Assembly (NCBI RefSeq): GCF_964340395.1
Contig: NC_135564.1
Location: forward strand, 6,006,861 to 6,070,860
Reading direction: 5' to 3'
From: Glandiceps talaboti
Taxonomy: Eukaryota; Hemichordata; Enteropneusta; Spengelidae
Length of the DNA: 64,000 nucleotides
Both the position numbers and the translations under genes were made by a program. Under the pieces are notes generated by a model that had not been told where the DNA came from, ran no database searches, and was given only the letters and a program-made list of their open reading frames with translations. Of this stretch, positions 6,883 to 50,400 are shown piece by piece; within the stretch, counting starts at the first letter, position 1; every line of letters starts with the position of its first letter.

Positions 6883-9800
6883 TTAACGTCGGTCCATTTT
6901 GCCCATTTTCCTTTTCCCGGCATACAAATGTCGCGGCATCGCAGTCCGTATATTTCTGTCAGCTTCACCAATTTTACCAAATCTATTAGCTCTCCTCTGA
7001 GATGTTTTCATCAGTTTCTTGGCCTTGTCTCGCATCTAGAGAAAGAAACAGTAAAAAATACTTTAACTTGTAGATTCCAAAAATATATATGACAAAAGAA
7101 GGTACTGAGTGAGACTCAGAGAGGTAAATCTATTTCATATTGTTGGTTTACATCCTGGTTCCTTTGGTATTCCAACAAAATTAGTAAGTCATTACCATCT
7201 TAACTTGAATGTCATTGAACTTATCCAGTATAACTAAAGAGCATTGACGGCCTTCCCTAGCCAGGGGAGAACATGATGTTCAGTCAAAGAAGTAACTTGT
7301 ACTTACACTCTGGATGACATAATGGTTATTGTACCATTAAGTAGAAGCTAGGGTAGGGACTGTGCAGAGTTACAATTACTGTATTCACTACTAATTAACC
7401 AACAGAAGACTAAATACAACCAATCACAACACAGTATGTAAATTAGCAGCCTTACAGTTTTATCACATACAACCAATCACAACACGGTATGTAAATTAGT
7501 AAACTTACAGGTTTATCACGTACACCAGATACATCACGAGGTGTTCTACTACTGCTGGCAGCACGTCCAACAGAATCGGTACGTTGACGTTTATTTTGAT
7601 GAACCATTGGTGTCTTGCTACGGGATCTACTTCTTGTATAGTGACCCTGTAAGTCAAATAATAATTTTAAATAACAAACTAAATTTCATAATTTAGTCTG
7701 ATTTCAGTACAGAAAAAATATACAGTCAGGTTACAAGTATTTTCACTTGGGTGTACATACTTTGGCAGAAATGCAACACCAATGAACACAGCATGTAATG
7801 ATAGCTACAACAAATACAATTCAACAAATAAATACAACATACAAACAAACAAAAGAAAAAACACAAAGTACATACCGTTTGATCAGGTTCTATTCCCAAC
7901 TCTTCCATTTCTCTCTCAAAGCGTCCTCTCTTACTCTGGAATAAGAAAAACAGCAATACTTTGGTAAGTTAGTTTTACTAGTCTTGAAGAAATATGCTTA
8001 CAGCAGTCCCTGGTAAGTGAAGTTACTACACTGTGTAAGTATACATTATACTTACCTTGACAGCAATCCTTGGTAAGTGAAATTCTATACATTATACTTA
8101 CCCTAACAGCAATCCTGGGTAAGTGAAGTGCTACACATTATACTTACCCTAACAGCAATCCTGGGTAAGTGAAGTGCTACACATTATACTTACCCTAACA
8201 GCAGTCCTTGGTAAGTGAAATTCTATTTATTATACTTACCCTAACAGCAGTCCTTGGTAAGTGAGGTTTCTCCACTTTTCTCCTCTCCTTAGACTCCATA
8301 ATCTTCAGTTGTCTCTTGTTGCGAATCCTGCAGATCGAAACAACAATATCATTACTTTGTCTCCATGGTAACTGATGATTGACATCTGTTGTGTAAATCA
8401 CAGACTCTGCCTGTGCACATTAACACTAGAAATTTACCAACACAAGTTATCATGATATACAAATGTATGTTTCTTCTTGACTAAACATAACACAGTTTCT
8501 ATGAAAATGTAGCTTCTTGTTATCTGGTGAAATGAAAATTCATTCATTCATGCATCCATTCATCCATTCATTCATTCATTCATTTATTCATTCAGCTAGC
8601 TGACCACAAACATTTACAGACATTTCTAATGATAGTATTATTGTTCTTTGAGTCAATGATCCATCATAATGATACTTACTTTGCTGCCATTTTCCTTATT
8701 TCCTGCATTTCTTCATCTTCAGAACTCTGAAAATTAATTTATACACATAAAAAAGATGTTTACAATTGTTTTCAAAATGTTTCAGTGACAATCAAGATCA
8801 AGTATTATTCATCAAGTAGCTATTTCAAAAGATTTCATTCCTCCATATTGTGATAAAATATAGAGGTGTTCTCACTGAATAACATAACACTCGTGGCATT
8901 AAAACAGTCACAAGATTCTCCCTTCCAAGTCTCTCAATGGCATATGGTAAGCATAGAAGGTGTTGTTATGGTCATTGGCCAAACACAATAACTTTTGATA
9001 TTTTTAGTACAATATTGTGTTAGTTTCCATGGTAATATATCAAGATAGCACCAGTTTCAACAGTAACATGTCAAAATAATGCATTTCTGTGGTAACATGA
9101 CATTGTTAGTTTCCACGACAACACATCAATATAGAAGCCAATTTCATGTCAAAATGTTAGTTTCCATGGTAATGTGACAACATTGTATTAGTTTCCATGG
9201 TAACATCTTCAATAATCTACACTCCTTACCATATCTTCATCATATTCCCCTGTTGCTTCTCTCAATCCTTCCTCCTTTTCCAGTTCATCCAATTTCTTTT
9301 CAATATCAGGATCAACGAAATCAATAACGTTGTGTCCTTCCCACAATTCTGGAATAACATCATATTTTTCATCCTCTTCAACAAGAAAGTTCTTCTGCAA
9401 ATCAAGAACATATTCATCTTCCATTTCGATCTCAATATCACGTTCCAGTCTTCGCCGTTTTCCTTCAACCTCCATTGCTGACTTCTTCTTTTTTGCACCT
9501 TCTGGGATACATGGTGGCCTTGCCTACACAACAAACACACATTGGATACATAAAAAATAAATCTCAAATCATTAGAGAGTTCTGTACTACATTCCCTTAG
9601 CACTTGAAACTGTCAGGATCTAGTAACTGGGTTGAACTTATTTAAATACAGTAGAACAATTCAGTTAATCGAAAATATTATCCACATTTGACATGAAATG
9701 TTGGGAAAGGATGACTGTCAAACTATGGAACTCTACAGTACTGAATGATTCTGACAAACACCTCTGGTCAAAATTTGCTGTTGAACAGTGCCCTCTAGTG

Positions 9801-12800
9801 ACCAACGTATAGTCTTTGATATTAAACTAGACTATGACATTCAGTACACCTGCTACTGTAATGAATTCAAATCATGGGTATTGTTACTTTTTATTTTGAA
9901 TTTCCTCTTGTTTCTTCCCTTATTATTGCATTTTTTGGAATTACTTTAAAAAACCTACATTTATAAAAGACCTGCAATGCTTGTATTTACACGAAAGACA
10001 CTGTACATCAATGCTTATATTTACAAAGAGTAAACATCATTTCTCGTGCTTTGTGGTCACCTCGTCAAGATTTTTTGAAGCCTTTTAGAGAGTTGACTTT
10101 TGTATTAATGACTATCCAGTTTCTCTTTCTTTTGATCAATTTTTTTTTCAACTTATCTTTCCATGTTTCTTACCTTGTTGTCTCTTTGTTGTGGTACAGC
10201 TAAATGTAGTCTGTTCAATACATCATTCACTTTCCTTCCTTTAATCTTGCCTTCTACTCTCTGGGCTAACAATCTATCACAGGCCTAGGGAGACAAAATA
10301 ATATAGCTGGATTACTATGGAGAAAATGAAATAAATCACACACTTAGGGAGACAATGAAATATAACACAAACCTTGGGAGACAATGTACATTTATTACAA
10401 GTTTTAAAATACAATATATGAAATTCCACGATTTTAATGTGTACACTCGACTCGGACCACAGCTAGGGAAGTCTATATACATTTTACCTTATGTAATGCC
10501 AAAAGGTCAAAATAGAACAAGAGATTTACTCTTATGTGTTCCTATAGCAATAAATGTGTAGCACGTAATTTGAAAGTTTTGGAATGCATCAAGAAATTAC
10601 ACAATTGTTATTTTTATGAACCACCTAGGTTGTAAAAACCTATTTCAGAGTTTGCTACAAATCTTGGATCAATTAGTGTCTCCAGAAGACAGAAAAAGAG
10701 TGTCAAACTTCAGACTACATGTAAAGGTCTTTGTCAATAGTAGAACTGTTGGTATCAGCTGTAGACACAATAACTCACCTCTGTTTTGACATTCATAACA
10801 CCTTCCTCAGTCACTGTACTCATCGGAAGTACTGGGATGCCTTCTTTATCAAAGTCTTCAAAAAGTTTCTAGAAAGATGTGAAAAAGTAGGATATATATG
10901 AATTTGTGTTATATGGTAGCACACACAGAGTAAATTTAATCATTTAAAAACATAATTTTGTGAATGAGGTACACATTTACTGTGGATTAAACAACTCAAT
11001 AATGTACATTTCTACATCTCATCTGTATATTTGTTTAAATCTCACATCAAGTGATATAAAGTAACTTATCTCACCTTTTCTTCATCTGGTAATTCTTCAA
11101 GTCGTAACACATCAATCTTGTTGACTATGACAAGGAGTGGTTTATTAGCAAACAAAGGCTTTATGTTCTCGAATAGTGCAATCTAAGGAAAAGAATACTT
11201 CAGGTGAGATTTCAAATGTGAAAGACACATATTATCTGCAATCCTAGTTTACTAGTCACCAGTACAAGACATGTTTTTTTTCCATCAAATGCAAAGACAA
11301 ATATTATCTGCAATCCGAGTTTACTAGTCCGAGTGTCCAGTTAATTGCTACACCAACCCTGCAGTATACATGTATACAAACCCTTACTGCCATCAGAACT
11401 CACTGAAAACATGGCTGACAAAAAGTCCACACTAGAGGGAGTCCTTACCTGTTCCTCTATTGTGTGTCCACATTGTTGTGATACGTCCATAATATACAAC
11501 ACTGCAGCTCTCAGATGAGCCAATGCTGTGATAGCTTGCATTTCAATGGTGTTTCTTTCCTCCAATGAATGATCTAAAATACCTGGCGTATCTACCACTT
11601 GCCATCGTAAGTATTTATAATCAGTGTGACCAACAAACAAAGATTTGGTTGTAAATGCATACGGCTGTACTTCAACATCAGCTCTAGTTATCTAAAAAGT
11701 AGACAAGAAAATTGTGAAATTTTAAAAATATTCACCAGAAATATCTCTATCTTTACTCATCTTTGAAGCAGATTAACTCATAGCTACCCAAATACAATTA
11801 GATATTATTCCCCAATATTTTTCTTCATTCAGCTGAGAAAAATTTGTGACCTAAGGGGCCTTGTCACTATGAGTTGCAAGACAAGTAATGACAAACCTTT
11901 ATGTCATGAGTATTTTCTGGCTGAATGAAGTAAAATATCAGGGAATAATATAATTATATATCCTCAAGCATAAATTATGAAAAATCAGGAAAAATAATGG
12001 CAATTTGGAACGTTTTGACCCATATTTTGAAAACTGCAAAACAAGTGATGTAGACACAGGCTGTCATGACGTAGAACGACCAGGCTATATAATCCATATT
12101 TTCTGTTCAATGACAATTGTTTGGCTTGAATATGACATAATGTAATACAAATTGTGAAATAGAACTGTCATTTTGACTGTGTAATGGTGACCTTTTGGTG
12201 ACCTGATTATTTTCTGTTAACAGGGTGAAAGCTAGTCAGAGATTTTGGAAACGCTGAGTTGAGTTTTGTTGTGACCATCCACTTTCCATTGTTATGACAT
12301 AATATATATATTCAGTAACAGTAACTAATATCATAACATAAATGTTAAAGGCCCATGCTTGGGTGAGAAAAACAGTTGTCTTAGAGAGCTATAGAAAAAT
12401 TTGGTTCTGAGCATAAGAATAACCCAATGTATTGTTACGACGTAACTGATATGATGGCACTATTGTGAGAACCTAGGATGGAATTGTTGGCCTTATTAAT
12501 TGCCATATAACATTTACATTGTCAACATTCTCAATCCAGTTGACATGTACTCTATGATGAATGGTTGGTAAATGTTGATTATTCAACTTACCTTATTAAT
12601 AAAGCTAGACTTGCCAACATTAGGAAAACCACATATAAGCAGTGTCCGTGTATTTGGGTCAATAGTGGGTAACCTTGACAAATGTTGTCTAACTTGTTCC
12701 AAGTATTCCAGACTTTGGTTCTGTCTTTTCATGATAGTACACATTCTACCAAGGGCTGCTTTCTTCAGTTGTTTGCATCGATAAAGTGAGTCTGCATACT

Positions 12801-15800
12801 TCAAAAGTCTTACGTAATCCTTAGAAACACTGACAGATAGACAGAATAGAAAGGTTTATTTCACAAACTTGAAGCCCAGGTAGTATTAGGATTAAAATGT
12901 CTCATTCAAACAAAATATTTTTTAAAATACAATATTTTTTATTAAATTTCCTCTGACAAACAAAAACAAACCTTTGCAAGATACAGAAACGTTTTATTTG
13001 CATGATACATTTAATATTGTTCGAGTCTAGTTCCTGTCACCCGTATTCCGATTTTTACACTAGGTTATCTTCACACATTTAACATTGTTACTCTCGCACA
13101 GAATTTGTGCTCCCCTACAGCGTTCATATAAACATGATGACGTTGTTGTGTCCCCGCGTGATTTTACTTTAAGCAGACGAGGTGGAGTTCGGGTGAACAT
13201 TTGCATATCATATCAATCCAGCTGTACCAATGAATATTAATGAGCAATGACGACAACCTGTCAATTTGTGATGGATTACTACTGACAGCATGGGTTTGAA
13301 CCACATTTAACGCCTTGAGTAACAACATTGACTAGACGTAATGTATGACGATAATGTAGTGAAAATCAGAATACGGTCGTCAGGAACTAGACTAATAATA
13401 ATATTGTCCCTATCTTGAATACATATGAATCTATTGTAAACTCAGTTGAGTTTAACTATTTTACTGTCATTCTTACCTACACCTGAATCTAACATAAAGA
13501 CCAATAAAGAATTAACTATTTGTGACAAATAAAATAACTTACTTGTCGATGAGATGTCTGGCTGTATTGATTTGACCAAGAGCTAATTTGTAATGGTCTT
13601 TATCATACAAGACATTCATCAAATCAGCATAAAATGGGTGAATATCCTGTAGAGAGAAAAGCATTGTATTTAAATGGAAGCTACAACATTGAATCCATTT
13701 CATTGCTCTCATCACTATTGTTGGACATGTTAAAATATTTACTGATATTTTTCTGTAAGAATATCTATGGTGTATGTCAATCATGATTTATAAAAGGTCA
13801 TCAAAGTATGTTTCACCCTCAACAAGTGATAGGATATTAGCACCTTTCAATCACATATTCTTAAGGTCTCTTGTCCTGAATAGTGGGTCAATCAGTTGAC
13901 AAAGTCTGGAGTGTGCAGTCAAAAATTTCAGGTATAATTTTCAAGTTTGTGTTTGGAACAAAACTTTAATTTGATACCGTGATTTACTAACACAGATGAA
14001 TTTTCATTTGAAGGCCTTTCAATCTACTTACCTCTAGTTTTGGAAAATCACCAATAATCTCTGACAGTTTATCATGGAAGTTTTGTTGTGTATAGCGAAC
14101 CTTCCTCATATAAAAATGACGTATCCGACTAATTTTATAGTGTTTATGAATGACAGTTGGTGTCTTCCGTTGTGTTCTTGAAAGAACAATGTCAACAAAA
14201 TCCTGCAACCAAAAAATGAGATTTTAGAATATAATTTTTTATCTATAAGTGACCATACTGATGACAAATTGGCTGTTTATTTTTGGGATTTTTAATTCAT
14301 CAAACAACCCTATTATGTTTTTATACAGAAAAAAACTTTGAACCAATATATACTAAATTCTTGTTTATAACTCAATAAGTTGCAATCCATTCAAATCTTT
14401 GTAAAATATTTGTTATTGTGTGTACAATAACAAACTTTTTATACAGTTTTTAGCTTTTTGTGATGTATGAGTTACAAACACAGACTTGGTCAATGCTTTT
14501 TCAAGTGTAAAAAAATATTTGTAGAGTTGTCTTATGAATTCAAAATCCAAATAAATACCAATTTGTCATCCATATGGCCACTATAAAATTTAATTTTATA
14601 AATCTCCATCGAAAATGGATGGAAACAGAGTATTATAACAGTTCTTATTGCATGACCAAAACATTCTAATTACCTACGAGTAGCGTTTTGTCTGACCTGG
14701 TCGACAGGCTTTGTCAAACGGTTTGAATTTACAATCATGTCATCGCCACTACGCCACCAAGCGGTATGAGATATCACGTCATCGCCACTACGCCACCAAG
14801 CGGTATGACATAACAAACAGACAGTTTGACAAAGCCTGTCGACCAGGTCAGCCGAAACGTTACTTGCAGGTAATTAGAATGTTTTGGTCGACATGCATGA
14901 GTATTAAGTTGGCGTCAGATTCAGATAGCGTCATATTCAGTATCATATTGAGCATCAGATACATTCCTCCTTCCATGAAAAGGTTGTGAGGCGGAATCTT
15001 TCCCTGTAGTCTCAACGGTATTACTTCAGGTTTGATTGAGTCCGTCGGGTGTCTTCGGATCTGAGGCTATCTGACGCTGAATATGACACTATCTGAATCT
15101 GAATCTGATGCCAACTTTATACTCGTTCGACATGCAATAATAAGAACCATTATAATACTATGCTTTACTGATCTGATGAATATTTTAAAGGATGGGAACA
15201 TATACTACATACTAAATATAAGTATCCAGCAAATCAATGGTTATCTATTGTATCGTATTGTATTGTTCTGTATTGTATTGTGTTGTATTGTATTGTGTTC
15301 TTTCTATTCTACATGTATTGATTGATGTCATGAGTTTCATTTTTAGATTGTCCAGTTCATTATATTGAAAGTTTAATTTTATTGAATGAATGAATGAATG
15401 AATGAATGAATGAATGAATGAATGAATGAATGTGGGATAAATCATACTACAACAGATCCACATTCCTCCAGCAGCGTGTACCACAATGATCAGACTCAAA
15501 GTCATGATGCAAGTTCATTAACAAATTACAGAAAAGTCAATAAGACAAGTTCAGTATTGCTGCTACACCCAGTGTAGACACAGTATGTATTACTCCACAT
15601 CAATATTTCAATGTTTCAGATTTTACAAGTTTACATGTTGTAATTTTTGGAGATGTGGTAACACATGTCAAGTTCCATCATTCATCCCAGTGTTAGTACA
15701 TGTATATTTTGGATCACATAGATTTCATAATCAATCGACACGACTGTTTTATTTAGCAATCGTGAATTATCAGTGCGGCTAATACTTATTACTTAGTACA

Positions 15801-15898
15801 CATCGACAGTGAAAGATATCCTTCCATATTAACAGTTTAGAAATGCTTACCTTCCCGGACGGGACGACGGTAATTTTCTTAAAATTGTAATGCGACAT
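6883..15898 (-). CDS. GTPBP4: NOG1 nucleolar GTPase (GTPBP4), 14 exons
   Basis: Encodes the NOG1 GTPase needed for maturation and nuclear export of pre-60S ribosomal subunits in nucleolus and nucleoplasm. Exons (minus strand, high to low): 15851-15898, 14032-14202, 13543-13646, 12592-12829, 11449-11691, 11075-11182, 10779-10868, 10174-10284, 9230-9523, 8680-8726, 8240-8327, 7876-7935, 7509-7646, 6883-7035. All junctions are GT-AG and the sum is 631 codons including TAA, close to the human 634 aa. The start [16 protein letters not shown] matches the family N-terminus. G1 GFPNVGKS is at about 175-182, the G2 threonines at 201-202, G3 DTPG at 221-224 and G4 NKID at 289-292; an acidic, then Lys/Arg-rich tail ends [11 protein letters not shown]. 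The GTPase fold looks intact and active. Several junctions carry tandem microduplications (exons 8, 11, 13). It is head-to-head with HP1. Confidence 0.97.
7414..7519 (-). repeat. 53-bp duplication across NOG1 exon 13 donor
   Basis: Two adjacent 53-bp copies (7414-7466 and 7467-7519). The right copy contains the last 11 nt of exon 13 and its donor (AAACCT/GTAAGT); the left copy, inside the intron, holds a decayed version (AAAACT/GTAAGG) with a still usable GT. So the exon end plus donor was copied into the downstream intron. Confidence 0.8.
7996..8266 (-). repeat. 46-bp tandem array carrying the NOG1 exon 11 donor
   Basis: About six copies of a 46-bp unit; copies start at 8050, 8096, 8142, 8188 and 8234, with a more diverged copy to the left. 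The copy from 8234 includes the true 3' end of exon 11 and donor at 8240. On the minus strand each unit reads like CTTACCAAGGACTGCTGTTA followed by GG/GTAAGTATAA, so at least three intronic copies keep the exon end and a perfect donor consensus. Confidence 0.9.
8450..8600. repeat. Dispersed repeat with TTCA-type tail
   Basis: A stretch reading AAAATGTAGCTTCTTGTTAT, then CTGGTGAAATGAAA, then a degenerate (ATTC)n run. The same order (GTGTAGCTTATTTTTGTTAT, CTGGTGTAATAAA, then a long pure (TTCA)n) recurs at 55555-55681. The shared body plus microsatellite tail fits the 3' end of a SINE or LINE family. It lies in a NOG1 intron. Confidence 0.6.
10284..10400 (-). repeat. Degenerate tandem copies of the NOG1 exon 8 acceptor
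   Basis: Upstream (in minus-strand terms) of the exon 8 acceptor TTGTCTCCCTAG are two further copies of the same stretch, with GGGAGACAA (plus strand) at 10288, 10347 and 10376. The copies retain TTGTCTCCC followed by YAAG. Spacing is irregular (about 59 and 29 bp), so this is an older or rearranged duplication. Confidence 0.55.
11757..12240. repeat. Dispersed repeat family C, copy 1
   Basis: A stretch including ATATTTTTCTTCATTCAGCT, then GACCTAAGGGGCCTTGTCAC, and an inverted version of the same arm (TTCTGGCTGAATGAAG) further right. Related copies lie at 31175-31415 and 46560-46890. The local inverted organisation suggests a non-autonomous DNA element. It is intronic in NOG1. Confidence 0.6.
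12340..12500. repeat. Dispersed repeat family D, copy 1
   Basis: Contains AAAGGCCCATGCTTGG, then GAAAAACAGTTGTCTTAGAG, then AGCTATAGAAAAATTTGG and GTGAGAACCTAGGATGGAAT. The same ordered blocks occur at 47885-48050 (inside IQCB1), with a related piece near 29690-29770. This looks like an old interspersed repeat of about 150-170 bp. Confidence 0.55.
13024..13394. mobile_element. MITE family B, copy 1 (370 bp)
   Basis: Ends are inverted repeats of the TAGTCTAGTTCCTG type followed by RTATTCYGATTTT and a CACTA/ATTAT-rich block. A second copy with the same interior (AATGAATATTAATGAG, AGCCTGTCAATTTGTGATGG) lies at 55847-56193. No ORF. TA or TTA at the outer edge is compatible with a Tc1/mariner-type target duplication, but that is inference. 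Intronic in NOG1. Confidence 0.8.
14240..14597. mobile_element. Long palindromic MITE family A, copy 1
   Basis: About 355 bp that folds on itself end to end. The arms begin with a GTGGCCATATGGATGACAAA-type terminus (reverse complement at the right end), pass through WTTTATTTTGGATTTTTA, and meet at a centre of TTTGTTATTGTGTGTACAAT. A better conserved copy is at 17888-18253, and partial copies at 31423-31500 and 56775-56945. Intronic in NOG1. Confidence 0.8.
14630..15165. mobile_element. Compound nested foldback element
   Basis: Three sets of inverted repeats are nested. The outer arms near 14630-14655 and 15133-15165 share GTATTATAA and GTTCTTATT. Hairpin 1 pairs 14656-14727 with 14821-14893 (CTGGTCGACAGGCTTTGTCA and its complement). 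Hairpin 2 pairs about 14888-14970 with 15060-15137 (GCGTCAGATTCAGATAG type). The loop of hairpin 1 holds two direct copies of GTCATCGCCACTACGCCACC. In single strand this would form a cloverleaf-like structure. The small plus-strand reading frame across it is a by-product. Confidence 0.7.
15373..15432. repeat. (AATG)n microsatellite
   Basis: About 15 uninterrupted copies of the tetranucleotide AATG in the first NOG1 intron. Confidence 0.98.
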
Positions 15899-16480
15899 AT
15901 TGGTAGTCTGAATTAAAGCACACGGCTCTACCACATGGCCGATAACCCTTGACCCAGTATTGCGCCCTCTTTGGGGGAATTTGGAAATAATATAGTTTTC
16001 ACTTTCAGGGACTGTTAAACGTGGATAATATTCCTGAAAGTTAACAATTTTTTTTAAATGGTTGCTTAGATATTGGATATGTAGATATTTCGGCATAAAA
16101 TCATGATTTGAATATAAACTCTTGGGGGGCGCGCTTATGTTGGTCAATGTCCCGGATGTCAACACTGAGATTGCGCACAACTTGCTTTCCCGCGATTTGA
16201 GTGTTATCCTTTCAAACGCACTTCCCTGTCCATTGATACCAGGTGAGTTGAAATAAGTCGTATGGTGAACAGATGTGAAACTACAGGGATTTTGTTATGT
16301 TCTTTTCAACATTATACGTGTATTTACTGAGTTTGCAGTTGTTGTGTATCCAAGAAGCTGTATTCTACGAGGTAACTTATTTTCAAAATGGCCGCCTTGC
16401 CTTAGAACTAAGAAGTGACGCTTCAGCTCTGAAGAAAAATCCTTTGTTTTGACTGTCGTTTTCGGCAGTTACAACTCTCC
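15899..16480. promoter_or_regulatory. Probable shared promoter of NOG1 (minus) and HP1 (plus)
   Basis: The region between the NOG1 start codon (15898) and the next AT-rich spacer is locally richer in CpG. It holds a strong donor (ACCAG/GTGAGTTG, exon edge at 16242) on the plus strand, consistent with an HP1 5'-UTR exon whose intron ends at the acceptor at 20810. A motif AAAATGGCCGCC near 16386 resembles a YY1 site. The transcription starts are inferred from context only. Confidence 0.5.
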
Positions 16481-17368
16481 GGCGTTTAAGAATTACTCTG
16501 AAACGCAATCAAATTGTGAATAAGTTGCAAATGTCTGCAAAAGATCTATTTTTGATGTGACGTTTCTGTTGTTTCCTTAGAAATAGCGTTCGACATCAAC
16601 GCCATGTGCTACATTCAAATCAAAAGTGTGAACGTGTTTATCACTCTTGTCAAATTTCATAACAGACCTTTCAGAGCATCTGCAAGCAAAATTTGTGTAA
16701 GTTAGTTCATCAGGACTACAATAATTGCAAACTAAGCTATGCACCAACCCTGTTCCCCCTTGGTAACTGAGTGGACTCGAGTCTTATTTACATTCATTTG
16801 TGCTAGCTCATCATATGCTACAACTGCAACTACAAGACAGTTGTGGGATTTGAATGGCTAACATACAATAGTATCACTCAGTGGCTCTTTATAATGAACT
16901 GTTCCAAGCAGATTTGAAGGTCAAATAATTCATTACAAAGATTTATTCCAACACTCGGTCTCCTGTTGGTCGATTTGGTGACATTTTCTATGCACTTAAC
17001 GAGGTTCAATAGCATTTGTTAGTATATTTACCTTTCCTACTATATATAACAATACTATTTTGACATAGTGTGCAGGCATATATTTGGTAACTAGAATTGT
17101 GGTGTATATTGAGATTGTTATCTGTAGCCAAGCTGAAATAACCTGTGTAGCTGATAGCTTTAAGTATTAACAACTGAGTTACTAAAGTTTTACAGTCAGT
17201 TTCCACTGCGGTCACAATAGTTTTGTTCTTGACAGATTTGGTTATTTGGGTGACATCATCATTCCTCAAAATTGAAAAATCCAAACATTTTGGGTGTCCT
17301 AAAGAGGAAGTAGCTTGCAAGAGATCTGACATGAAAATAATAATGGAATTTACATAAACAAAAACCAA

Positions 17369-19687: not shown

Positions 19688-20680
19688 ATTCTTACCAGGA
19701 ATCTTATACAAAATTGTTGTTGACTGTACACAGAGAAGCCACGAAAGTGTCAACAGACTTCCTCATCTCTTCTACAGGGTTTCTGAATATTAAAAACTCT
19801 GGCTGTGCATAATATAAGAACATAAATTTCAGCATAGATATGGAACCTTGTTAGATATGAAAACTTTCATTTCTTTCATGACCAGTATATAAATTATGGT
19901 TTTTGCACAACTATACCAAAGTAAGTAAATTTTATAAACCTTTGTACATGGGTTGATTTAGTCGCATCCAGGCAGTTTGATGTGTGCAAATGCAAAAAGC
20001 AACCAAATTGACAAATTTATGCACATAGTAACAAGACTGCAGTTGTCAAATTTAACTTGTACACCTACATGTACTAGTCTGCTTCAGCCACGTGAACTGT
20101 TTCAGCTTCAATTTTCTGTTGATTTCCATTGGTTTAATAGACCACCACCCGATGAAATTGGTCAAAATACTGTGTTTAGTAGTGTCTGTACCGTGGAACA
20201 CTGCTTTATTTCAAGGCCTGAACAAAAATGATTTGGAACTCTGGCAGATTTTACCTGCCTTTAGTTTTAAACCTTACTAACAAAGTACTGTTGAATAATG
20301 ATATAACACTGCTTAGAGTAGCAAATGTACAGTGTTATTGAGATGATGCAGTTTATTATAGGAATCAAGCATCATCAACTAGTTTGGTTGTATACTTCCT
20401 GGGTAGTGAAACTAGCAAGCTTGGTATGTCTAGGTGAGAGTGTAACCTGTTCTATATCAGTGTTTATGTGGTTAGTCATACAATCAATTTATTACAAGTT
20501 CACTGACAAACTATTTTGATGTGATTTTGGCATTTCTGTGACACTGATGGACATCAGACGTGCAAGAAGCATGTATATTTACTGATCTACAAAACAGACA
20601 GTTTTTCTTTCCATTCTATAAATCTGAAAGTTTAATACATAGATATTCAACATCAAAGCATAATACATACGATTGACAAT

Positions 20681-24297
<3,617 letters not shown>

Positions 24298-27200
24298 TTG
24301 CTACTTATTTCTTACATGTTGTTTTGTAACACCAATGATAATGACCACCTGAGATCTATCTGCAGTTGTGTAACGCCAACGATAATGACCTGGGATATAT
24401 CTGCAGTTGTGTGACACCATCAGTTTTGACCTGGGAGCTTTCTGCTGTTGTGCAGTTCTCCATCTTGTGGCATCATTAGCATGGAGGATGTTCAGCTCTG
24501 TCATGTTACACCATCATTAACCTGGAGGATGTTCTGATACCTGCCTTTTTTGTTCACCATCATAGGCACGGAGGATGTTCAAAGACACAAACCAATATGT
24601 ACTGAAGTGTGAACAAATGTTGTCCATCCTCTTAAAAAATAGACACGTCCTTCAGAGTTCAAGGTCTTTTAACGGTGACACAACTTGCACCATTCTGGAA
24701 TATTTAAAAGATATAAGCAAACTGAGTCTACTAGCAATGGTGTCAGTATCAATAACATGCATCAAGTGTTATACTTTTTTGAGGTAACACAGTTGTGATG
24801 TTTGCACAGTCGTAGGTCTTTATGTACAGAACAGTCAATGCACATAGGGTATTTGTACAGACAGAAATATTTCATTATCCAACTGCAGGTGGATCCAACT
24901 ATCATTATTCACTCAGAATACTATATTTGTTGTCTTCAAAAGTTGAACTTCAACCATATTCTGTTTGTTGTGTTCTTTCCTGTGGATCTTGTGGGAGGGG
25001 GCCTTCAGAATATAGGGTTTAGATGGTCACCATTTTCTTTCTGGATGGTGAAAGCCCCTACAAATTTGACATTTTTATCCCAAACTAAACTGAGTTAATA
25101 TTGATATTTCTTAGTCTTTAAAACATAGAGTATTTTCATGAAGTAAACAGGACTGTAAATGACTTTACATCAAGCTTCTAGTATACCATAAATTCATTTT
25201 CTGAGAAAAAAAAGGAGAACGCTGTTTGTAGTCATTCTGAGTTTAATATTGTCAGTGCATGTGATAATAAACTACTGTACAGTGTGTGTTCCTAAATACA
25301 AGATATATTCCCAAGCATCAGTCCAGTCTTTACCTAAAAAAAGTAAATATATTTCCTGTCCTGTCCCATTTTGTCTCTTTTGCGTAGAATATACTTAGAG
25401 TTTTGATTTTAAACATTTAATAATCATGGCTGTATTAATTTTAAAAAAACTATACTGTTGTTAACTAATTTCAGAGCATTGTTTTTTTCAACAAGTTTAA
25501 AACAGACACCCAACTGTGGCCAGGCTTGTTTCAGAACTTCCAACAGATTTTGCAGTTATGATCTGTAATGGTTTGTATTTTTCTAAATTCAGTATTCCAT
25601 GTAATAAACAAGATTAGAGTATGTAGATGAAGATATTATAGTGGTGGCACTGATAGTTTGAATTAACATGCTACAGCATCAAAGTTGGTGTCTTAAATTA
25701 AAGTGAAATTGTGCATTTCTATACCACAGCAATTCTCATGGCAGTCGGTTTGGCCCTAACTAGGGGAGTATTTTGATGGCTTGCAAATGAGAACGATGGC
25801 TCCAAGAGTAAGATTTTCTGACTCCCAACAAATACTGCCCTCTAGTGATACCAAGTACTATGTGGCTCTAAAGAGACCATGAAATACTGCCCTCTAGATG
25901 TGAGAAAAGCTGTGAAATCCAAAGGAAAAATCCATTACTCGAATCTAAACAGCCATAATTTTCAGTTCTCACTATGTCAAAACTGCTAGTGCATAGTGGC
26001 TAGGCCACATATTGTACTACATAGTAACTTGGTATATTGTGAGATCCAGTTCACCAAATTACATGTTACACTTTCATATTGCGTTCAGTCACTGAAGCCT
26101 GGCCAGAGTCAAACCTATGGTTTGATATCTATATATAAAAGAAGGTTGGATTTTCACTCATACAACATCATAGGTAAGGTAGATAAAGATCTGTAGATCT
26201 TGAAGACTAGTTGAAATTTTAACTTCCATAGAACATTCTTGCTGTTAAATATGTATACTGCTATAGTAGTACTTTCAGTTGAATATTTTCCGTTTCTGCA
26301 GATTTGGATTTTGTGTCTGCAATTTTGCATATGATTAGACATTGTCCCTAGGTTATATTTTATGCTATTTTGTGAAAAAATACTAATATCACCAGCATCA
26401 TATATGTAAGTAAACTTCTGATTAGAAAATGTAAGTAGGGCCGATACACATCTTGTCAATTTAGGAGGAACTCACTGGTGGGGTGAAAAAAAAAGCAACT
26501 GCCAAACAAACAAAGTACTGTACAGATATCTGTTTTTTAAATTTGTAAATGTTGAATGTGAGTCCATGTGTGTGTTGGGAAAAATTGTTCTATCAGACCG
26601 CTAGTTTTCTTGTGTCATCATAAATGCAAGTTCTTGCTCGTTTTGTGCTTTTTACAGTAAAGTTTTTTTTTTAAACCGATCACTCCATCTGGTGCAACAC
26701 TTCTCTGTATGAACAAGTTTATGATTGTCTGTTGGAAATGTTAGTTTAGTTTAGTTTATTTCAGTAAAACAACAAGATCGACAGTGCAGATATACAAGTA
26801 AAAACTGGTACAAATTGTTGAATTACTTGGATAACCCACGAAAGTCAAAGACTTGTTTCCAGTGGGGTCCGTACAGTGATTCAAGAAAGTGGCAGGATTA
26901 GCATAAGAAAGTACAATAGTGTTCTTTTGTAGTGAAATCAAATAGTTCACTAGAGGTTTGTGGCACAGATAAAGTGATCGAGATAGTGGTATCCTGTCAC
27001 TAGATTTCAAACAAAATCCAGCCTTCTTCAAAACTTGTAGCTTGTTACTTCAGAACCAGTTTGTGGCACAATTTTATTAAATGTATCTGATGTAGTAAAC
27101 AATGATTGTGTTCGTGTTCTTATATTTTGATGCAGATGTTCCTAATATGTCTGCATTTGTAATGAGACAGCAAGTGTAGACAACGATGCATCTTTTCGCT

Positions 27201-36740: not shown

Positions 36741-36823
36741 TGCAGAGTGCAAACAACAATAGACCTTTAGTCTAACCTATTGGTAAAGAACATAAATGTA
36801 TTTTCTATTAATTTTCTAGAATA

Positions 36824-37156
36824 ATGGGACGTGAATGTAACAAATACAAGTGGATCCATGGTCAAGTGAACCAGGTTTGCAGTCCACAAGAAACTAAACG
36901 ACAAGCTATCCAACACTGTATCCTTACTCTGAAACATGCATCTCACTGTCATAATGCAGCCTGTCCTTTGCCAAAATGTCACAAGATGAAACTTGTTATA
37001 ATTCATGTCCGTAAATGTAAGAATAAAATTGGTGGCAGATGCCCGATATGTCGACAGTTTGTGGCATTGTGCTGTTATCATGCCAAACATTGCCAGGAAG
37101 CCAACTGTGAAGTACTCTACTGTAAAGTCATCAAACGAAAAATTCAAAATAGATGA
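36824..37156 (+). CDS. Single-domain TAZ2-type zinc-finger protein
   Basis: A 110-aa protein consisting almost wholly of one TAZ zinc finger, most like the TAZ2 domain of CBP/p300. All three HCCC zinc sites are intact: H38-C42-C47-C52, H61-C65-C73-C76 and H86-C90-C95-C100. Family signatures ACPLPKCHKMK, GRCPICRQFVALCCYHAKHC and a basic tail are present. In CBP/p300 this fold binds transactivation domains of transcription factors and viral proteins; here no acetyltransferase, bromodomain, KIX or BTB part is present, so the role may be that of a free TAZ module (inference). The CDS has no intron; an acceptor (TTTTCTAG) 5-12 bases upstream suggests a spliced 5' UTR. It could be a duplicated or retrocopied piece of CBP that became a gene. 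The full zinc set argues against a pseudogene. Confidence 0.85.
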   Translation: MGRECNKYKWIHGQVNQVCSPQETKRQAIQHCILTLKHASHCHNAACPLPKCHKMKLVIIHVRKCKNKIGGRCPICRQFVALCCYHAKHCQEANCEVLYCKVIKRKIQNR

Positions 37157-39929: not shown

Positions 39930-40205
39930 CAGTCAGTCAACAGCTAAGTCTTTCTTGGAGTCATGGGTCTGACAATGCATAGCACCAGCAGGCTTTGTGT
40001 GTGATCGTCCCCAACTGTGATTCTTTGCTGGCATATTCACAAATTCACTCTCATCTTGTGAGTGCATGATTATATGCTTACCCATCGTGTTACCCTCTTA
40101 TTTGGGGTTAAAGTCACAGAAATTTCCCATCTCCAGTGGGATTTGAACCCATGACCTCCTGACAGCTAAAGTCCTGGGCTGTTTAACCGCAACTTCATTA
40201 AAGGG
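39930..40205 (-). mobile_element. tRNA-derived SINE-like element
   Basis: Read on the minus strand, 40205 downwards gives TTGCGGTTAAACAGCCCAGG, then TCAGGAGGTCATGGGTTCAA ATCCC, a good B box with a weak A box about 35 nt upstream. No complete cloverleaf could be drawn, so it is a tRNA relic or SINE head rather than a tRNA gene. Confidence 0.45.
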
Positions 40206-40346
40206 AGCCACAAGTTTTCATTTTCATTATTGGTTACTAATTGATGCACAGTTTTCCTTTTGTAAATCTATAGATGGGAGTCATCCATTAAACATCTTTG
40301 GTCAAGTGCATTGTACCTTATTTGGTGACTTACAACATCATTGAAC

Positions 40347-42006: not shown

Positions 42007-42136
42007 AACTAAAATCTTACTCTAATGGAGAGATAATCATACCGTGATACAGACAGTGAGGGTGACGCACATGATTTAGTTCAGGTATGAGCTGTGAACT
42101 TGAGCACAATCTTATTTCCAATTCTCAAGTCAGTAT

Positions 42137-42214
<78 letters not shown>

Positions 42215-44428
42215 CAAGCCAAAACTACTCTAAACAATACAGGGTAAGGATAGTGACAGGTATAAAGTACCATGATAACATATCATGATGGTATACCCGG
42301 TAAAAGACGTTTTCCTTTAATATCGATTGGCCACATACAGTCAAGACCTCAAAAGTTTGTTATTATGAGGAAATTGCCTTGTTTGATTTGATATCATATT
42401 ACTACAAGTAGTCGTATCAGATCAGATTGCTTGAGTTACTGACTAAGAGAGTAATCAAATAGTACATGATCAGGAATAAAGTTCTCGGACATTATTTATG
42501 GTTTTATCCAAATCTTACATGGGGTACAGATTGCACAGTATCTAAAAAATGTACTGTTCTAGATAAACATAGAACCCCATAACTTCAGAACAGTGTAGGT
42601 ATTAGGTATGTTTTGTGAACATTTTGCTTTTAGTGTTTTCTGCTACATTAACATACGGTACCTGTAGATGTGATTGTGAAGGACTAATGCTACTACACTA
42701 TTCCGTTATCCTGACATTTAGATTTTTTTTTAATTTTCACATATCCTTCCTGACGAGTAAAATACTCATTTATCCTCAATAAAAGCATTTATTGAAATAT
42801 TTTATTTTACATGAACTCAGCAATTGATAACATATAAATGATGCTTTCAGTTTGATGAAAACTGATATTTTTATTAATTTTTTATGCGTCATTTTACTAG
42901 AAATCCAGTGTTTTATGTTACACAGACAATTTGTCTCTTGGTGTAATGAGTTTCATTTTTACACTCTATATTGACCGTGGCTGTAATAAATTTCATGTTT
43001 ACACTCAATACTTGTGGAATTGCTGTATTTATTACCAGCCTAATCCAAGACAACACTGGCAACATGCATGCATCATTTGCACATGGAGTGTTCCAAAAAA
43101 TACGACCATGGTACTACTAGTAACGTCCATTAAAAGACCAAAGAAACATACTGATTGACTTGTCTTTTGATTCAAACTTTTAATATCAAAAAATACAAAA
43201 TAGAAATATACATACATAGGAGAGAGATGAGGTATCTAGTATTTAATTGAACATAACACAGAGTACTGATATATTATTGTTCCCTAATTAAAATTCTATG
43301 TGAATTACTGCACCCTGTCAAAATCTGTGGACTATTTTTTGTCATGTACAAAATTGACAAGGAATTACCAAAATTTATAAATAGAAATTATCCATACAAT
43401 TATCAAAATATTTGTGAAGTACCCAACCCTGGTATATAAGATGGTCTTTGATTGGTTTAAGCCTAGCATATAAGGTGGTCTTTGATTGGTCTATACCGGG
43501 TATGAAAGATGGTCCAAGGCTGTTAAATATAAGGTGGTTTTTGATTGGTTGAAGCCTGGAATACAAGGTGATCTTTGATTGGTCTCAACTCAAGGGTTAT
43601 TTTTTGTTTGCTAGGCAATTGATTTTCTCAAGTCTTTTAGATTCATCGACACAAACTTACGACATGTAGGTAGGAATATATCTCTTCAAGTAGAAGAAAA
43701 GTCATTGCAAAATAAATCATAACTAATATTCATAATATAAATTAAGATTTGATGTGGGAATTAATCTTGAAATATCTAAATCATTGTTTACAAATTCCAA
43801 AAGTAAATATGTAATTTACATCATCCCATGAACAATAAACCAATCTGAGAATTAATTAAACCTAATTAATTAAATTAATTAATTGATTTGATGAATAAGT
43901 ACAAATAAATATTAACAATTTACAGTCATATTTGTTGATATTTAACATCATTTAGATTATTATAATTTCTTTGTTTCTATTATTAAGTACACATTTGACA
44001 AAAGCTACATTTTCTAAAGTTCATTAATTTATTGCTAGCAAATTAACTTGATAATCCAATTTACAGCTAACATAAAGTAACTTGATACTGTATTAGTATT
44101 GTTTGAAAGCTAACATAGAAATGCAAAGGGGGTATGTAAAGGGCATTGTGGGTAATCTATGCAAATGTGGGAAATTCAAACTGCCATACACTACTACTAC
44201 ATCATCATGTAGGTTTTATTTTCACCCTATTTTTCTTTCCCCATGAACTATGTGACTTCTTGTGTGCATACAAACTGTTTTTGAATTACAGATAACAAAT
44301 TTAGTTTTTTTATTTGCATTGTTGGTGATATACAGCATAAACACGACGGAAACAGAATCTAAACCTAAAGTCGGCCATTTTGGGCTCTAGACAACTTTGC
44401 ATATGTATGGAACTGAGATCAGTTACAT
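42007..44428. other. Convergent spacer between SMUG1 and IQCB1
   Basis: No exon supported. Contains (CA)n at 42140-42210, an AATAAA near 42475 that could serve SMUG1, a set of five degenerate 35-45-bp repeats at 43425-43590 (GGTGGTCTTTGATTGGTYT, each with an inverted CCAAT), and long AT-rich stretches. TTTATT near 44308 could be the IQCB1 poly(A) signal on the minus strand. Confidence 0.55.
42140..42210. repeat. (CA)n microsatellite
   Basis: About 35 uninterrupted CA dinucleotides just downstream of SMUG1. Confidence 0.98.
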
Positions 44429-47400
44429 CTAAAAGACTTTGAAATTATACTCTTCTTCTTGGAAGATTTCATTATCAGGTAGATCATGTTCATCTAATTT
44501 CTTCCACCATGGTTGTTGTAGTCTTTTCACGGCTTCAATGTGATTCTTTCTAGCCTTGGTTGCTATTGGTAACGATCTACTCATGTACGTGTACAGGTCT
44601 CTTTCTGATGCGTCCTTCACTTTGGGTGAATCTGGTACAGAAAAGATACATGTGAAGATGATAAATTATATTGGAAGTAGAATGCATGTTTCTTACCTCT
44701 TAGTTTGATTGTCATTCTTTCATGACATGAGGCAGTATAATGAATTTGGTGACAAGATATTGGTGTTTTATTCTACAGCTAAAACAGGGAGAGTTTGCCA
44801 GAAAGACTGTACATAACATATATTACACCGACAGTTAAAACAGGGAGAGTTTGCCAGAAGACTGTACATAACATTACATCGACAGTTAAAACAGGGAGAG
44901 TTTGCCAGAAGACTGTACATAATATATACATTTACAGTTAAAACAGGGAGAATTTGCCAGAAGACTGTACATAAAATATACATTTACAGTTAAAACAGGG
45001 AGAATTTGCCAGAAGACTACATAACATATACATTTACAGTTAAAACAGGGAGAGTTTGCCAGAAGACTGTACATAACATATATTACATCGACAGTTAAAA
45101 CAGGGAGAATTTGCCAGAAGACTGTACATAATATATACATTTACAGTTAAAACAGGGAGAATTTGCCAGAAGACTGTACATAAAATATACATTTACAGTT
45201 AAAACAGGGAGAGTTTGCCAGAAGACTACATAAAATATACATTTACAGTTAAAACAGGGAGAGTTTGCCAGAAGACTGTACATAACATATACATTTATAG
45301 TTAAAACAGGGAGAGTTCACCAGAAGACTGTACATAACATATACATTTAATGATCATGATCATTTGGCAACTGTAGGTTGTTGTTGTACTCACTAGACAA
45401 GAGCACTTTTATTCCTGAACACAGAAGGATTGTTATTGACGAGAGTTTTGTTTACGTCAATCCAGTTGTGAAACTTCCCAGAATAACAATCATGCTGTGT
45501 TCAGTAGTAAAAGTGTTGTTATCTATCATGTAAAACAACATAAACTTGCAAATAATATTAGCATCTGATTTAAGCAGTGCTAGGAGTGCTTTTCTTCTCT
45601 ACTTACTAATGATAATATCAGCATCTGATTTCAGTTGTGCTAGGAGTGCATCTCTTCTCTGTTCTGATGTTCTGGTAATACCACTTAACATTAAATGTCT
45701 GGTTAACATAGACTGAGCTTTTTCGTGCAGTTCCTTCACTTCTTCCATGTTCTTACACTCCGTCTACAGGATGAAGATGAAACACAATTCATATATACTG
45801 ATGATACACAATTATCTAAACTGCTATGAATGTTATCTACATATGTGTTACTATAATGCATGCGACACCTAAATTAACATAGCTATGAGTGACAACTCAG
45901 TGATTAACAGGTGTCGCTGACCAGCTTGCTTTATCATTTGCTGTCATTTTAGCATTCACTCTATCAATCTTGCTTAGAGTATTTGAAATCTACAAGTTAA
46001 GTAGCCATCAAATACTCATGCCCAGATGGAGTACTGTTTGTCTGTAGACACACACAATGAGTAGTTTCATGATCACTATGTAAACTTTTATACCAATCCA
46101 AAGTTCGGATCAACACGTTGAATTTGGTTTATTTGAATGATGCCAAAATTCACTAGGAGGAAATTTTTTTTGGTCAAATAATGAAAATTTTCTGTTCAGT
46201 ATAAACAAAGTTGTATTTTACCGTTCAAGGTCACTTGCTCGGTTCTACATAATGTGGAAGCCCAAGGTGTGTGTATGCGAATTGTACTACTGTTATGCTA
46301 AGATTTGATGTTATATTCTTACTGGTTGTTCTTCTCTGCGTTTGTTGATCATTTCCTGTATTTCTACTCTTCTCTCATCTGTCAGCCCTGGGGGCGCTCT
46401 CCATGCTATCACTTCATTTCTCTGTGCGTCTAATTTGGCAAGAAATTTACGGGTCTGAAATAAACAAACATAAACAGTTTTGTGTTGTTTAGTGAGATCA
46501 ACATAGTTATTGTTATACTCAAATAAGAGGTGTTCATACAAATCTCATGATGGAATTTGAAGAGGTCAAAACTTGTGAAAATATGCGTAACCTAAGAGGC
46601 CTTTGTCACTATGAGCTTACAACCCTTAGGGCACAAGTATTTTCTGGCTGAATAAAGAAAATCATTTGAGACTAACATAATTATGCCAGCGCAAGTAATA
46701 TCAAAGAAAAATCAGGGAAAGCAATAACAATTTTGAATGTCTTGACTCATATTTCGAACACAGCAGAACCAGTGATGTAGGCATGCATTGTTGTGACATA
46801 GACGCATGCTGTCGTGACGCAGAATGACCAGAGTATATATTCCATATTTTTGGCTTGTGCATGGTATAACACATCAAATGTAACCTGTCAAAATTAGAGT
46901 ATAAGTTATAATACTGCATACTTACAGCTCTCTGTATTGCAATAGCTGCTCTGACTTGTACAGCTGTTGCTCTTCTCAGTCCATATTTCTTTCTGGCAAG
47001 GACACCTTTCCATCTAGCCTGGATCTTGATAGCTGCCGTGATTTGGGAGATCTCCAAATACTTATTCACCTTACCTAAAATTACAGTCAAATTGAATTGC
47101 TACTTACATGTTGACAAAAAACAACAACTTCAGAATCAGAAGCTTATTTTACTGAGGTACACCTTTTTATGTAAATTTATGTAAATGTTTAATTTTGAAT
47201 TAATCCAGCCTTGCATATACGCATCTAATGTCAGCTCATCTGCATAATTGGGTACCTGGTAGGATAGAGATTACAATGTGAAAGCTTTAATCTCATGCAT
47301 TTATAGAGGCAGCAATGGATTGTATGCTCTCACTTACTTGGATGCATAGCTAACTATCGTGTTATACTGAGACCTGTACATGACTTACTTGGGTGCATAG

Positions 47401-50400
47401 CTGCTATCATGTTTAGTTGTTTTTCTCTGGTATGGCGGATTGTTCTTCTATGTGCCACTAACAGCTGATGGCGTAATTCTCTCTCTTCTCTCTCTAATTC
47501 TAGTTTACGTTGTCTATTTACCTGACGTCCTCTGTGATAGTGGAGAAACAAGTCAGTCAATGACACTATAGCCATGAAACAAATGAATGAATCACAGTGA
47601 AAACCATATGAAAGGAAGTAGAGAAGAAGTGGTTGGAGAAAAAAAATAAAAGTCAATGAGTAAAAACCATGAATCGAAAACCATCTGTAAGGAAGTAATT
47701 CTAACAAAACAAAGTATAATACAATCCAATTAGAGGCTCGGTTCAATTTCACATTGAAACATAGGTGTGACAAACAGTTGTTTGGCAGGAATAGAAAAAG
47801 TTGGATCCTGAAGAAAAGAGTGATCCCATCTGTTTAATCCCTATGTCTCCATTTATACAACAGTAGTAATCCAACACCATAGGATTTAAAGGCCCAGGTT
47901 AGGATTAGGATTAAAATTCAGGTGTGAAAAACAGTTGTCTAACAGAGCTATAGAAAAAGTTGGCCAAGAATAAAAGAATTGAGCCCTTATAGCTCTTATG
48001 ATAAGATAATGTGAGAACCTGGAATTGAATCCCTGGCCTTTAAGATAAGTCTAACATTATCTTCACAAGAGACATATGAAATATATAATGTGTTAAAGAT
48101 TATGAACAATTTATTTGGTAGTATTTAAATTGTGAATTCTGAATTCATTGTTTTGATTGTAAAACTATATCAAGTTTATGTATATTTTAATTGTCAATAC
48201 TAATGACTGAAATGTAGGGATGGAGCTATGAGGAACTTCAAGCATGTGTTGAGCACCCTCCTGTGACAGAATAGGGAAAGTCACCAAGCCATTTTCACAT
48301 AGTACAATATATTAAATTTAGACTAAGGTTTCGAACTGACAAAACTGACTGATTATTTGTAGATTGTACAAACCTAAAACTTCTCTGGAATGTTTTCATG
48401 GCTTTATCAGCCTTCTTTAGTTGTTTTCTGGTTCGGAAACTTTTCCAGACTGCCTGTATTGTAGTTGCAGCCCTGTGCATTCTCTGTCAAGTATATTCAA
48501 ACAAACATTAGGAATAGATAATATCAAAACTGTAAAATAAATCACTTGTCCTTCCCTGATCTGACAGAATGATCCAATTTTTCTGGAGGTGTTTCTTATT
48601 AAAAAGTGGAAGAAGAGAACTTGTGTGTGAATCCCAGAGTTCTGATGATGAATATACATAGTGTCCTTCAGTAGTTGATTTCAATCAAGTGTATAACTTG
48701 TTGACAGCAACATAAACTGTATCAATATATCATGTCTTTTAAGGCAACAAATTATCAGCGTAGTCAATGAAAACAAGTTAGTAATAAAGTTCTTACCTGC
48801 ATTTCAGCTTGATGAGCTGACCCTGCATCTAACAACATTAACAGTTTCTTTAAATCTCGTCCAAAACCTTTACCAGTCCATTTACTTAGTAATGGACGCA
48901 AACCCCTGCAATGAAACACACAGTATGTATAATGAAGGTCTATATGGAATGAAACACACAGTATGTATAATGAAGTTCTATATGCAATGAAACACACAGT
49001 ATGTATAATGAAGTTCTATATGGAATGAAACACACAGTATGTATAATGAAGTTCTATATGGAATGAAACACACAGTATGTATAATGAAGGTCTATATGGA
49101 ATGAAACACACAGTATGTATAATGAAGTTCTATATGGAATGAAACACACAGTATGTATAATGAAGGTCTATATGGAATGAAACACACAGTACTGTATAAT
49201 GAAGTTCTATATGGAATGAAACACACAGTATGTATAATGAAGTTCTATATGGAATGAAACACACAGTATGTATAATGAAGGTCTATATGGAATGAAACAC
49301 ACAGTATGTATAATGAAGTTCTATATGGAATGAAACACACAGTATGTATAATGAAGGTCTATATGGAATGAAACACACAGTACTGTATAATGAAGTTCTA
49401 TATGGAATGAAACACACAGTATGTATAATGAAGGTCTATATGGAATGAAACACACAGTACTGTATAATGAACATCTATATAGAATGAATTTAATCAAACA
49501 AGCATAATAATCTTTCAATTTCAGAATATCAATTTTATACTGCTCCAACTGAGTGAGAAACCTCACGTCAATAATGAATGCAAGTAAACAATGTCTGTAT
49601 ATATATATTTGACTGGCCTGCCATCTACAGATTTATTTGTCACAGCCTGTGCAGGTATGTCATGAAATGATAGGAATAATCATTTCTAAAGACATGGTAC
49701 TACCTGCTTGCAATCATTTTATTTACATCAACAACAGCTGGTTGCTATGACTACCTACTTGTATCGACTGTACAACATCTGTATCATCATTTTATGTACA
49801 TCAGCGACAGCCAATAATGCCCTGGTTGCTGCAGCACCAACATCTGCATCTGTAAATGCTGATAACTTATAGACCAATTCATCTATTATACTAAACATCA
49901 CTTTCTCATCCAGGGTCTGTAGGACTTGCCTGTTGAATAGATTGTGATAAAAAAAAATTATGTAACGAGAAAGACATACTAGATTTAGAAAGTGTAATAA
50001 CATTAGGTTCAACAACAATGTTGTAGGTTCAGGTGGTGTTGTTATCAGTTTGTTTATATCTATGGAAGTTATAATGTAACACTAACAGTCATACTCGATT
50101 GTTATAACATGTGGTATTCTATCAACAGACTTATGGGGTCCTGGCATATGTGGTGTTTATGCTTTGATACTTTGCATGTCTTTGCACACTTACCACGAGC
50201 AAGCAAATGCATCGGTATTTTTTCACAGGTTGTAACATTCTCTTGTCTCTGATATATTTCTGTTTCATTACTCATCAATATCTGAATGTGATGTGCACCT
50301 TGCAAAGTCACTCTTATTTTTCCTTTGGCCAGATAAAAATAGATATGAGGAGATGAAAGGTATTGAATTTCTTGTAAACTTACATATTAGCTCTAACCAT

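Follow-up and report, generated by a model that had tools for sequence, protein, structure and literature searches.

A 64,000-nucleotide stretch of the genome of the enteropneust hemichordate Glandiceps talaboti (contig NC_135564.1, C17:6006861-6070860 of a 590-Mb, 47-contig assembly; called the window below) contains eight exon-intron junctions that are bridged by tandem duplications, such that the end or start of the exon is copied, together with its splice site, into the adjoining intron. The eight loci, six donors and two acceptors, lie in the genes NOG1, HP1 and IQCB1, and they have the structure of the mirages of amphioxus, which are minisatellite-like tandem duplications across both 5' and 3' exon-intron boundaries (PMC3087553, PMC3902484). 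With a probability of about two in three, we take them to be minisatellites that were born by tandem duplication with random breakpoints and have since been tolerated. The initial annotation of the window had stated that no named system of this kind was known; the name already exists.

Tandem copies were collected by an ungapped self-alignment of the window (shifts of 20-250, score of at least 75) in which gene positions were not used. In shuffled sequence the same alignment gives, per 64 kb, a mean of 2.2 segments scoring at least 70 and 0.6 scoring at least 80, compared with 253 and 223 in the real window; the tandem copies, as sequence, exceed chance. A more lenient alignment scoring was dropped because its noise reached about 110-120 at unduplicated junctions, and blastn self-comparison overlooks short shifts. 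The census yielded 33 clusters of tandem duplications, 20 of which touch introns of the modelled genes (35 introns and 70 junctions, counting one intron in the 5' untranslated region (UTR) of HP1 that was inferred by eye). Eight of the 20 cross a junction with at least 8 nucleotides on either side, each at a different junction, and the remaining 12 cross none. No cluster lies wholly within the 8,207 bp of exon, as against 21 that touch introns when the flanking gene WDR37 is included. The exon side of the alignment beats a shuffled exon at all eight junctions (200 trials each): the share of trials in which a shuffled exon was as good was 0% in six cases, 0.5% for the HP1 donor and 1% for the NOG1 exon 8 acceptor, the weakest of the eight.

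The genes modelled were NOG1, HP1, a SKAP-like gene, a TAZ zinc-finger gene, SMUG1, IQCB1 and COX14, all as open frames with GT-AG introns. Pfam domains back the models of the three affected genes (NOG1_N, NOG1 and NOGCT in NOG1, Chromo and Chromo_shadow in HP1, IQ in IQCB1), and the exon numbering of the initial annotation, which is kept here, fits them. One 29-nt IQCB1 "exon" at 50909-50937 was dropped because the frame is broken by it. The host genes are as follows, in positions of the window.

6883..15898, minus strand: NOG1 (GTPBP4), 14 coding exons, from gene model and Pfam
ending at 16242, plus strand: HP1 5' UTR exon, inferred by eye
20811..24297, plus strand: HP1 (CBX-like), 4 coding exons, from gene model and Pfam
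44429..53309, minus strand: IQCB1, 12 coding exons, from gene model and Pfam

The mirages, and two further arrays that bear on them, are these.

7414..7524, minus strand: NOG1 exon 13 donor mirage, junction 7508/7509, unit 53, about 2 copies, 16 exon nt
7997..8276, minus strand: NOG1 exon 11 donor mirage, junction 8239/8240, unit 46, about 5-6 copies, 37 exon nt
10271..10386, minus strand: NOG1 exon 8 acceptor mirage, junction 10284/10285, unit 29, 14 exon nt, degenerate
20674..20827, plus strand: HP1 first coding exon acceptor mirage, junction 20810/20811, unit 36, about 4 copies
20960..22118, plus strand: HP1 first coding exon donor mirage, junction 21005/21006, unit 136-139, 46 exon nt
22328..22406, plus strand: outlying old copy of the HP1 donor, TGATGA/GTAAGCTG, score 3.5, by direct reading
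45552..45660, minus strand: IQCB1 exon 11 donor mirage, junction 45606/45607, unit 60, 2 copies, 54 exon nt
47332..47402, minus strand: IQCB1 exon 8 donor mirage, junction 47388/47389, unit 51, 14 exon nt
48907..49488, minus strand: 38-bp minisatellite, not a mirage, adjoining the IQCB1 exon 6 acceptor with no exon sequence copied
49713..49811, minus strand: IQCB1 exon 5 donor mirage, junction 49758/49759, unit 73, 53 exon nt

Six of the seven junctions singled out in the initial annotation were thus recovered by a census that had no knowledge of gene positions, and the donors of IQCB1 exons 5 and 8 were added to them. The seventh, the acceptor of IQCB1 exon 6, had to be given up as a mirage: the 38-bp array ends at the acceptor, a free alignment takes in 1 exon nucleotide, and, with no floor imposed, 84% of 300 shuffled exons do equally well. 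Its alignment (total 186) had earlier passed through an imposed exon-side floor of 25, the exon side scoring 26.

The copied splice signals vary from perfect to decayed (donor scores are from a weight matrix built from the genes of the window, and a slash marks the junction). They are kept in the HP1 donor and acceptor copies, in NOG1 exons 11 and 13 and in IQCB1 exon 8. At the other three loci, NOG1 exon 8 and IQCB1 exons 5 and 11, they have decayed or are weak. The sequence GTTAGG/GTAAGTAT of NOG1 exon 11 recurs in the copies at +46, +92 and +138, so that the native donor is exact in three copies, and it is near-exact in a fourth. The copied donor of NOG1 exon 13, AAAACT/GTAAGGCT, scores 4.4 compared with 6.1 for the native site, and that of IQCB1 exon 8 reads ATCCAA/GTAAGTGA. 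At IQCB1 exon 11 the copied donor has decayed, and the locus was overlooked by Tandem Repeats Finder at a score of 50; at exon 5 of the same gene the copied donor, read by hand, is apparently damaged by a deletion. The HP1 acceptor copies carry 17 exon nucleotides that include the start-codon region. At the donor of the same exon, seven amplified 139-bp copies have the donor ATGGAA/GTAAGTTG, which scores 6.9 compared with 4.8 for the native TGATGA/GTAAGTTG. The outlying copy at 22328-22406 has kept the last 11 exon nucleotides, which are missing from the seven amplified copies, and the 11-nt deletion therefore probably predates the amplification.

In all eight cases the copies sit on the intron side of the junction, and the reading frames of the gene models are intact through the native sites. 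For five of the six donor mirages, reading on past the native donor meets an in-frame stop after 1-42 nt of intron; the exception is NOG1 exon 13, where splicing at the copied donor, at +53, would shift the frame. Use of a copied donor would break the frame, and the native site must therefore normally be used; judging from the sequence, the native splice sites would be those represented in the mRNA. The position of the copies on the intron side and the lack of any cluster wholly in an exon support one of the two explanations offered in the initial annotation, namely that copies are retained when they leave splicing intact.

The lengths of the units (29-139) are specific to each locus, and their sequences are mutually unrelated: of 28 pairwise comparisons, 2 reach p<=0.05, which is about the chance level. 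The units do not behave as a single mobile repeat, as the initial annotation had already concluded from their differing sizes. The position of the junction is scattered within the unit, exon sequence making up from 0.27 to 0.90 of it, as expected for random breakpoints and not for a cut at the splice site. Compared with the original, the junction-crossing copies range from 43/60 to 74/78 identities; alignment rows in which a query had found itself (one for the HP1 donor, one for NOG1 exon 8, and those for IQCB1 at 47388 and 49758) were set aside.

The most likely origin of a mirage is a short-range tandem duplication, due to replication slippage or unequal exchange, whose breakpoints fall more or less at random and happen to lie on either side of a junction. 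The copy would fall in the intron and leave the original next to it intact; the donor or acceptor closest to the exon would stay in use, and the event would be neutral. The array could then expand, homogenise and decay like any minisatellite, and duplications inside exons would be removed by selection. Consistent with ordinary minisatellite birth, tandem arrays are common elsewhere in the window (33 clusters in 64 kb), and array turnover is visible in HP1, where the old copy stands beyond the seven amplified ones. Exon-anchored copies may also be recognisable for longer than purely intronic ones, since conservation acts on the exon part of the original, and we infer that this longer recognisability could by itself give part of the apparent concentration on junctions.

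Several counts weigh against random breakpoints as the whole explanation. If units are placed randomly over introns and junctions, 2.9 of the 20 clusters would be expected to cross, and the 8 observed (P=0.0034) represent an excess of about 2.7-fold that plain neutrality does not fully predict. Among clusters scoring at least 170, 5 of 12 cross compared with 1.8 expected (P=0.019), and among those below 170, 3 of 8 compared with 1.1 (P=0.08). Addition of WDR37, none of whose 10 junctions is affected, gives 8 of 21 compared with 3.0 (P=0.005), and with WDR37 included the figures are 5 of 17 compared with 2.5 at scores of at least 100 (P=0.09) and 4 of 14 compared with 2.0 at scores of at least 150 (P=0.13), all with k=5; with k=10 the three P values become 0.0014, 0.044 and 0.078. 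All of these P values are uncorrected, and they are flattering because the window was picked for the pattern noticed in it. Furthermore, both ends of one HP1 exon carry mirages, and in the window and its flanks the donor motif GTAAGT is re-copied within 20-250 bp at a rate of 0.304, compared with a median of 0.143 for composition-matched words; it ranks sixth of 71 such words, five ranking above it.

The strongest alternative is that junctions are mutational hot spots, through R-loops or other single-stranded DNA or through AGGT/GTAAGT microhomology, so that mirages arise 2-3 times as often there as elsewhere in introns. The event counts just given are the main argument for this model, which on balance we consider unlikely. 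The excess weakens at the stricter thresholds (P of 0.09-0.13 with k=5 and 0.04-0.08 with k=10), WDR37 contributes none of its ten junctions, and detectability anchored in the exon could account for up to about twofold. Coverage per base is lower at junctions: a per-position test found no junction excess, with 7 of 70 junctions positive compared with 17.7% of 5,174 control looks in introns, a control that is inflated by multi-copy arrays, so that the test cannot speak for enrichment. Of the 7 positives, six are among the eight mirages and one is the IQCB1 exon 6 acceptor admitted by the imposed floor; this scoring overlooked the mirages at IQCB1 exons 5 and 11. As to the mutational bias suggested in the initial annotation, a cut or nick at the splice site itself is not supported, given the scattered junction positions, and a broader bias of 2-3 fold is possible but not established.

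Genome-wide counts of short words bear on the same question for donors. The donor word AGGTAAGT was compared with its reverse, with a neutral word of the same composition and with the reverse of the latter, pairs being counted at 30-60 bp.

AGGTAAGT, donor word: 28,973 single occurrences, 3,932 pairs, 0.136 pairs per single
TGAATGGA, its reverse: 36,815 single occurrences, 1,681 pairs, 0.046 pairs per single
AGTGATAG, neutral word: 27,046 single occurrences, 3,468 pairs, 0.128 pairs per single
GATAGTGA, reverse of the neutral word: 24,944 single occurrences, 2,454 pairs, 0.098 pairs per single

The pair rate at units of 30-60 does not set the donor word apart, and a reading of the raw donor count (3,932 vs 1,681) as a threefold bias was rejected, the neutral words being nearly equal in rate. 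At a unit of exactly 48 the donor word has 345 pairs compared with 130 for its reverse, 134 for the neutral word and 35 for the reverse of that, an excess that is inflated by single long arrays: among the matches listed, one array on C7 supplies most of the donor rows, and a few giant arrays weigh heavily in the word-pair counts as a whole. Counts of distinct arrays, again among the matches listed, lean towards the hot spot, with at least 5 for the donor word compared with 2 for the neutral word in C1:0-5.05 Mb (30-60 bp) and, at unit 48 up to C7:2.9 Mb, at least 10 places compared with 5 (3 families). These samples are small and only suggestive, and the arrays in them are known by word match and not by their position relative to a junction. 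In a gene-poor 200-kb block of C5, GTAAGT shows no excess (0.052 vs 0.083). Because the event counts favour a junction bias, the per-base counts do not and the genome-wide motif counts are equivocal, a modest bias of 2-3 fold is possible but not established. A still broader proposal is that junctions in deuterostomes are preferred over the rest of the intron for tandem duplication by 2-3 times, that mirages are common to hemichordates and cephalochordates, and that they furnish a steady supply of spare sites for new intron boundaries; we regard this as a rather doubtful extension.

The C5 block had also been considered as a second sample of junctions and was rejected for that use, since the self-trained gene finder over-predicted there and few introns were available. 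It lies at C5:5.0-5.2 Mb and is rich in retroelement-like frames, along with a tandem cluster of AIG1/GIMAP-like GTPase frames (named by reading translations). The word matches listed also include a 48-bp satellite family with near-identical units at C2:2805162, C5:1247189, C5:2144894 and C11:24005200, and since these four places are dispersed the family may be mobile.

A role for positive selection, with copies held in reserve for splicing or serving as a regulated switch of poison splicing, is improbable. It could draw on the seven HP1 copies, which all keep GTAAGTTG at a score above that of the native donor and any of which, if used, would end the frame at once (a stop follows after 1 intron nucleotide), and on the three exact donors at NOG1 exon 11. 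Homogenised arrays retain motifs without selection, however, and the copied sites of IQCB1 exons 5 and 11 and of NOG1 exon 8 have become decayed or weak.

Assembly artefacts, in the form of collapsed or over-expanded repeats, are a very improbable source of the copies. There is precedent for such errors: one amphioxus mirage seemed to be aberrantly assembled in a draft (PMC3087553), and in the present assembly contig C40 (51,222 bp) contains COX1 three times at intervals of 15,435 bp, as would result from writing a single circular genome three times in a row. Artefacts would be near identical, whereas the copies at the mirages are diverged, some are old or degenerate, and several loci have just two copies. 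The large arrays of HP1 and NOG1 may nevertheless have been given a wrong number of copies.

Finally, the mirages might be a first step towards gaining an intron or moving its boundary by way of duplicated AGGT proto-splice sites. This reading has the AGG/GTAAGT copies at NOG1 exon 11 and the proposal that mirages are raw material for new introns (PMC3087553) in its favour, and it is most unlikely to apply here, with all eight mirages at existing introns and no gained intron or shifted boundary shown among them.

The mirages of amphioxus were described in Adh3, the globin genes BflGb6 and BflGb9, TnC and PGBD5 (PMC3087553; PGBD5 and TnC are added in PMC3902484), with units of 10-72 bp in Adh3 and 150-160 bp in BflGb6, length polymorphism and somatic instability; splicing appeared normal by reverse-transcription PCR, and how mirages originate was called unclear (PMC3087553). 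The present loci resemble them in every structural respect considered: a tandem unit spans the boundary and places exon sequence and splice site in the intron, both donors and acceptors are affected, unit length and sequence are specific to the locus, many but not all copies keep the AG or GT signals, and the boundary itself stays intact, with the copies in the intron next to it. They differ in their host, an enteropneust hemichordate, and in their density, with eight cases in three genes of one 64-kb window. Unlike in the amphioxus studies, an event-level expectation was computed here, and the structures are known from the sequence of a single assembly. Ordinary intronic minisatellites share the size range and turnover of mirages and lack the exon sequence and the functional splice junction. 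Intron gain by tandem genomic duplication, as in the Rogers model and potato RdRp (PMC4974935), likewise involves a tandem duplication that copies splice-like signals, but in that model the duplication makes a new intron, whereas here existing junctions have been copied into an existing intron. Among the matches listed in a literature search that left most subscription journals outside its reach, no report of such structures outside cephalochordates was found. Mirages are thus not new, and what is new is probably their presence in a second deuterostome phylum.

The mitochondrial sequence on contig C40 agrees with the enteropneust identity of the host. The gene order reads ND2 -N W -A -Y COX1 -S COX2 ATP6 COB COX3 ND3 R ND4L ND4 H (protein names from reading translations), and the stretch is 46.8% AT. 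The AAA codon is absent inside the 9 of 13 mitochondrial protein genes that were counted, four AAA lying upstream of starts, and the four AGG of the mitochondrial frames also fall outside genes (9 genes counted). ATA occupies sites of cytochrome b that we take to be conserved isoleucine positions, and one COX1 ATA stands at what is presumably a methionine position. ATA as isoleucine is common to echinoderms and hemichordates (PMC2697986), whereas cephalochordates read it as methionine (PMC3121625), and the code is as in enteropneusts and not as in cephalochordates. In Balanoglossus, AAA and AGG are missing and the protein genes have an AT content of 50-52% (PMC3121625); there nd5 and cob are adjacent (PMC2697986), whereas here COB lies between ATP6 and COX3.

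The order of genes in the window (6883-54321) and its flank is WDR37-NOG1-HP1-SKAP-like-TAZ-SMUG1-IQCB1-COX14, the flanking WDR37 being named by reading its sequence. We take WDR37 and GTPBP4 to be neighbours in human as well, and likewise CBX5 and SMUG1. The TAZ gene, at 36820-37156, encodes 110 aa with a single TAZ zinc finger (PF02135, residues 29-100) and stands by itself, not being part of any CBP/p300-like protein. Other repeats include a 27-bp minisatellite at 1-1827 with about 67 copies, running on into the upstream flank to -855, and 41-bp tandem duplications at 24321-24581, soon after the HP1 stop codon and probably in the 3' UTR. In an IQCB1 intron, at 51385-51667, a 69-bp unit with a tRNA-like promoter sequence (GTGGCCGAGTGGTTAAACCACTTGCC...) occurs about four times in a row and is followed by sequence like that of a short interspersed element (SINE); the array resembles what we assume to be tandem growth of a SINE head.

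Mirages are carried by 8 of 70 junctions in the window, or by 8 of 80 if WDR37 is counted. Now that a second well-assembled genome is at hand, the choice between random duplication with tolerance and junction-directed duplication can be tested by counting. Mirages also offer a natural test of donor choice by the spliceosome among many near-identical sites, and HP1 provides the best test case, as seven donors that outscore the native one on a simple weight matrix must be ignored. Their occurrence in a hemichordate implies either that mirages are ancestral in deuterostomes or that they arise readily in minisatellite-rich genomes.

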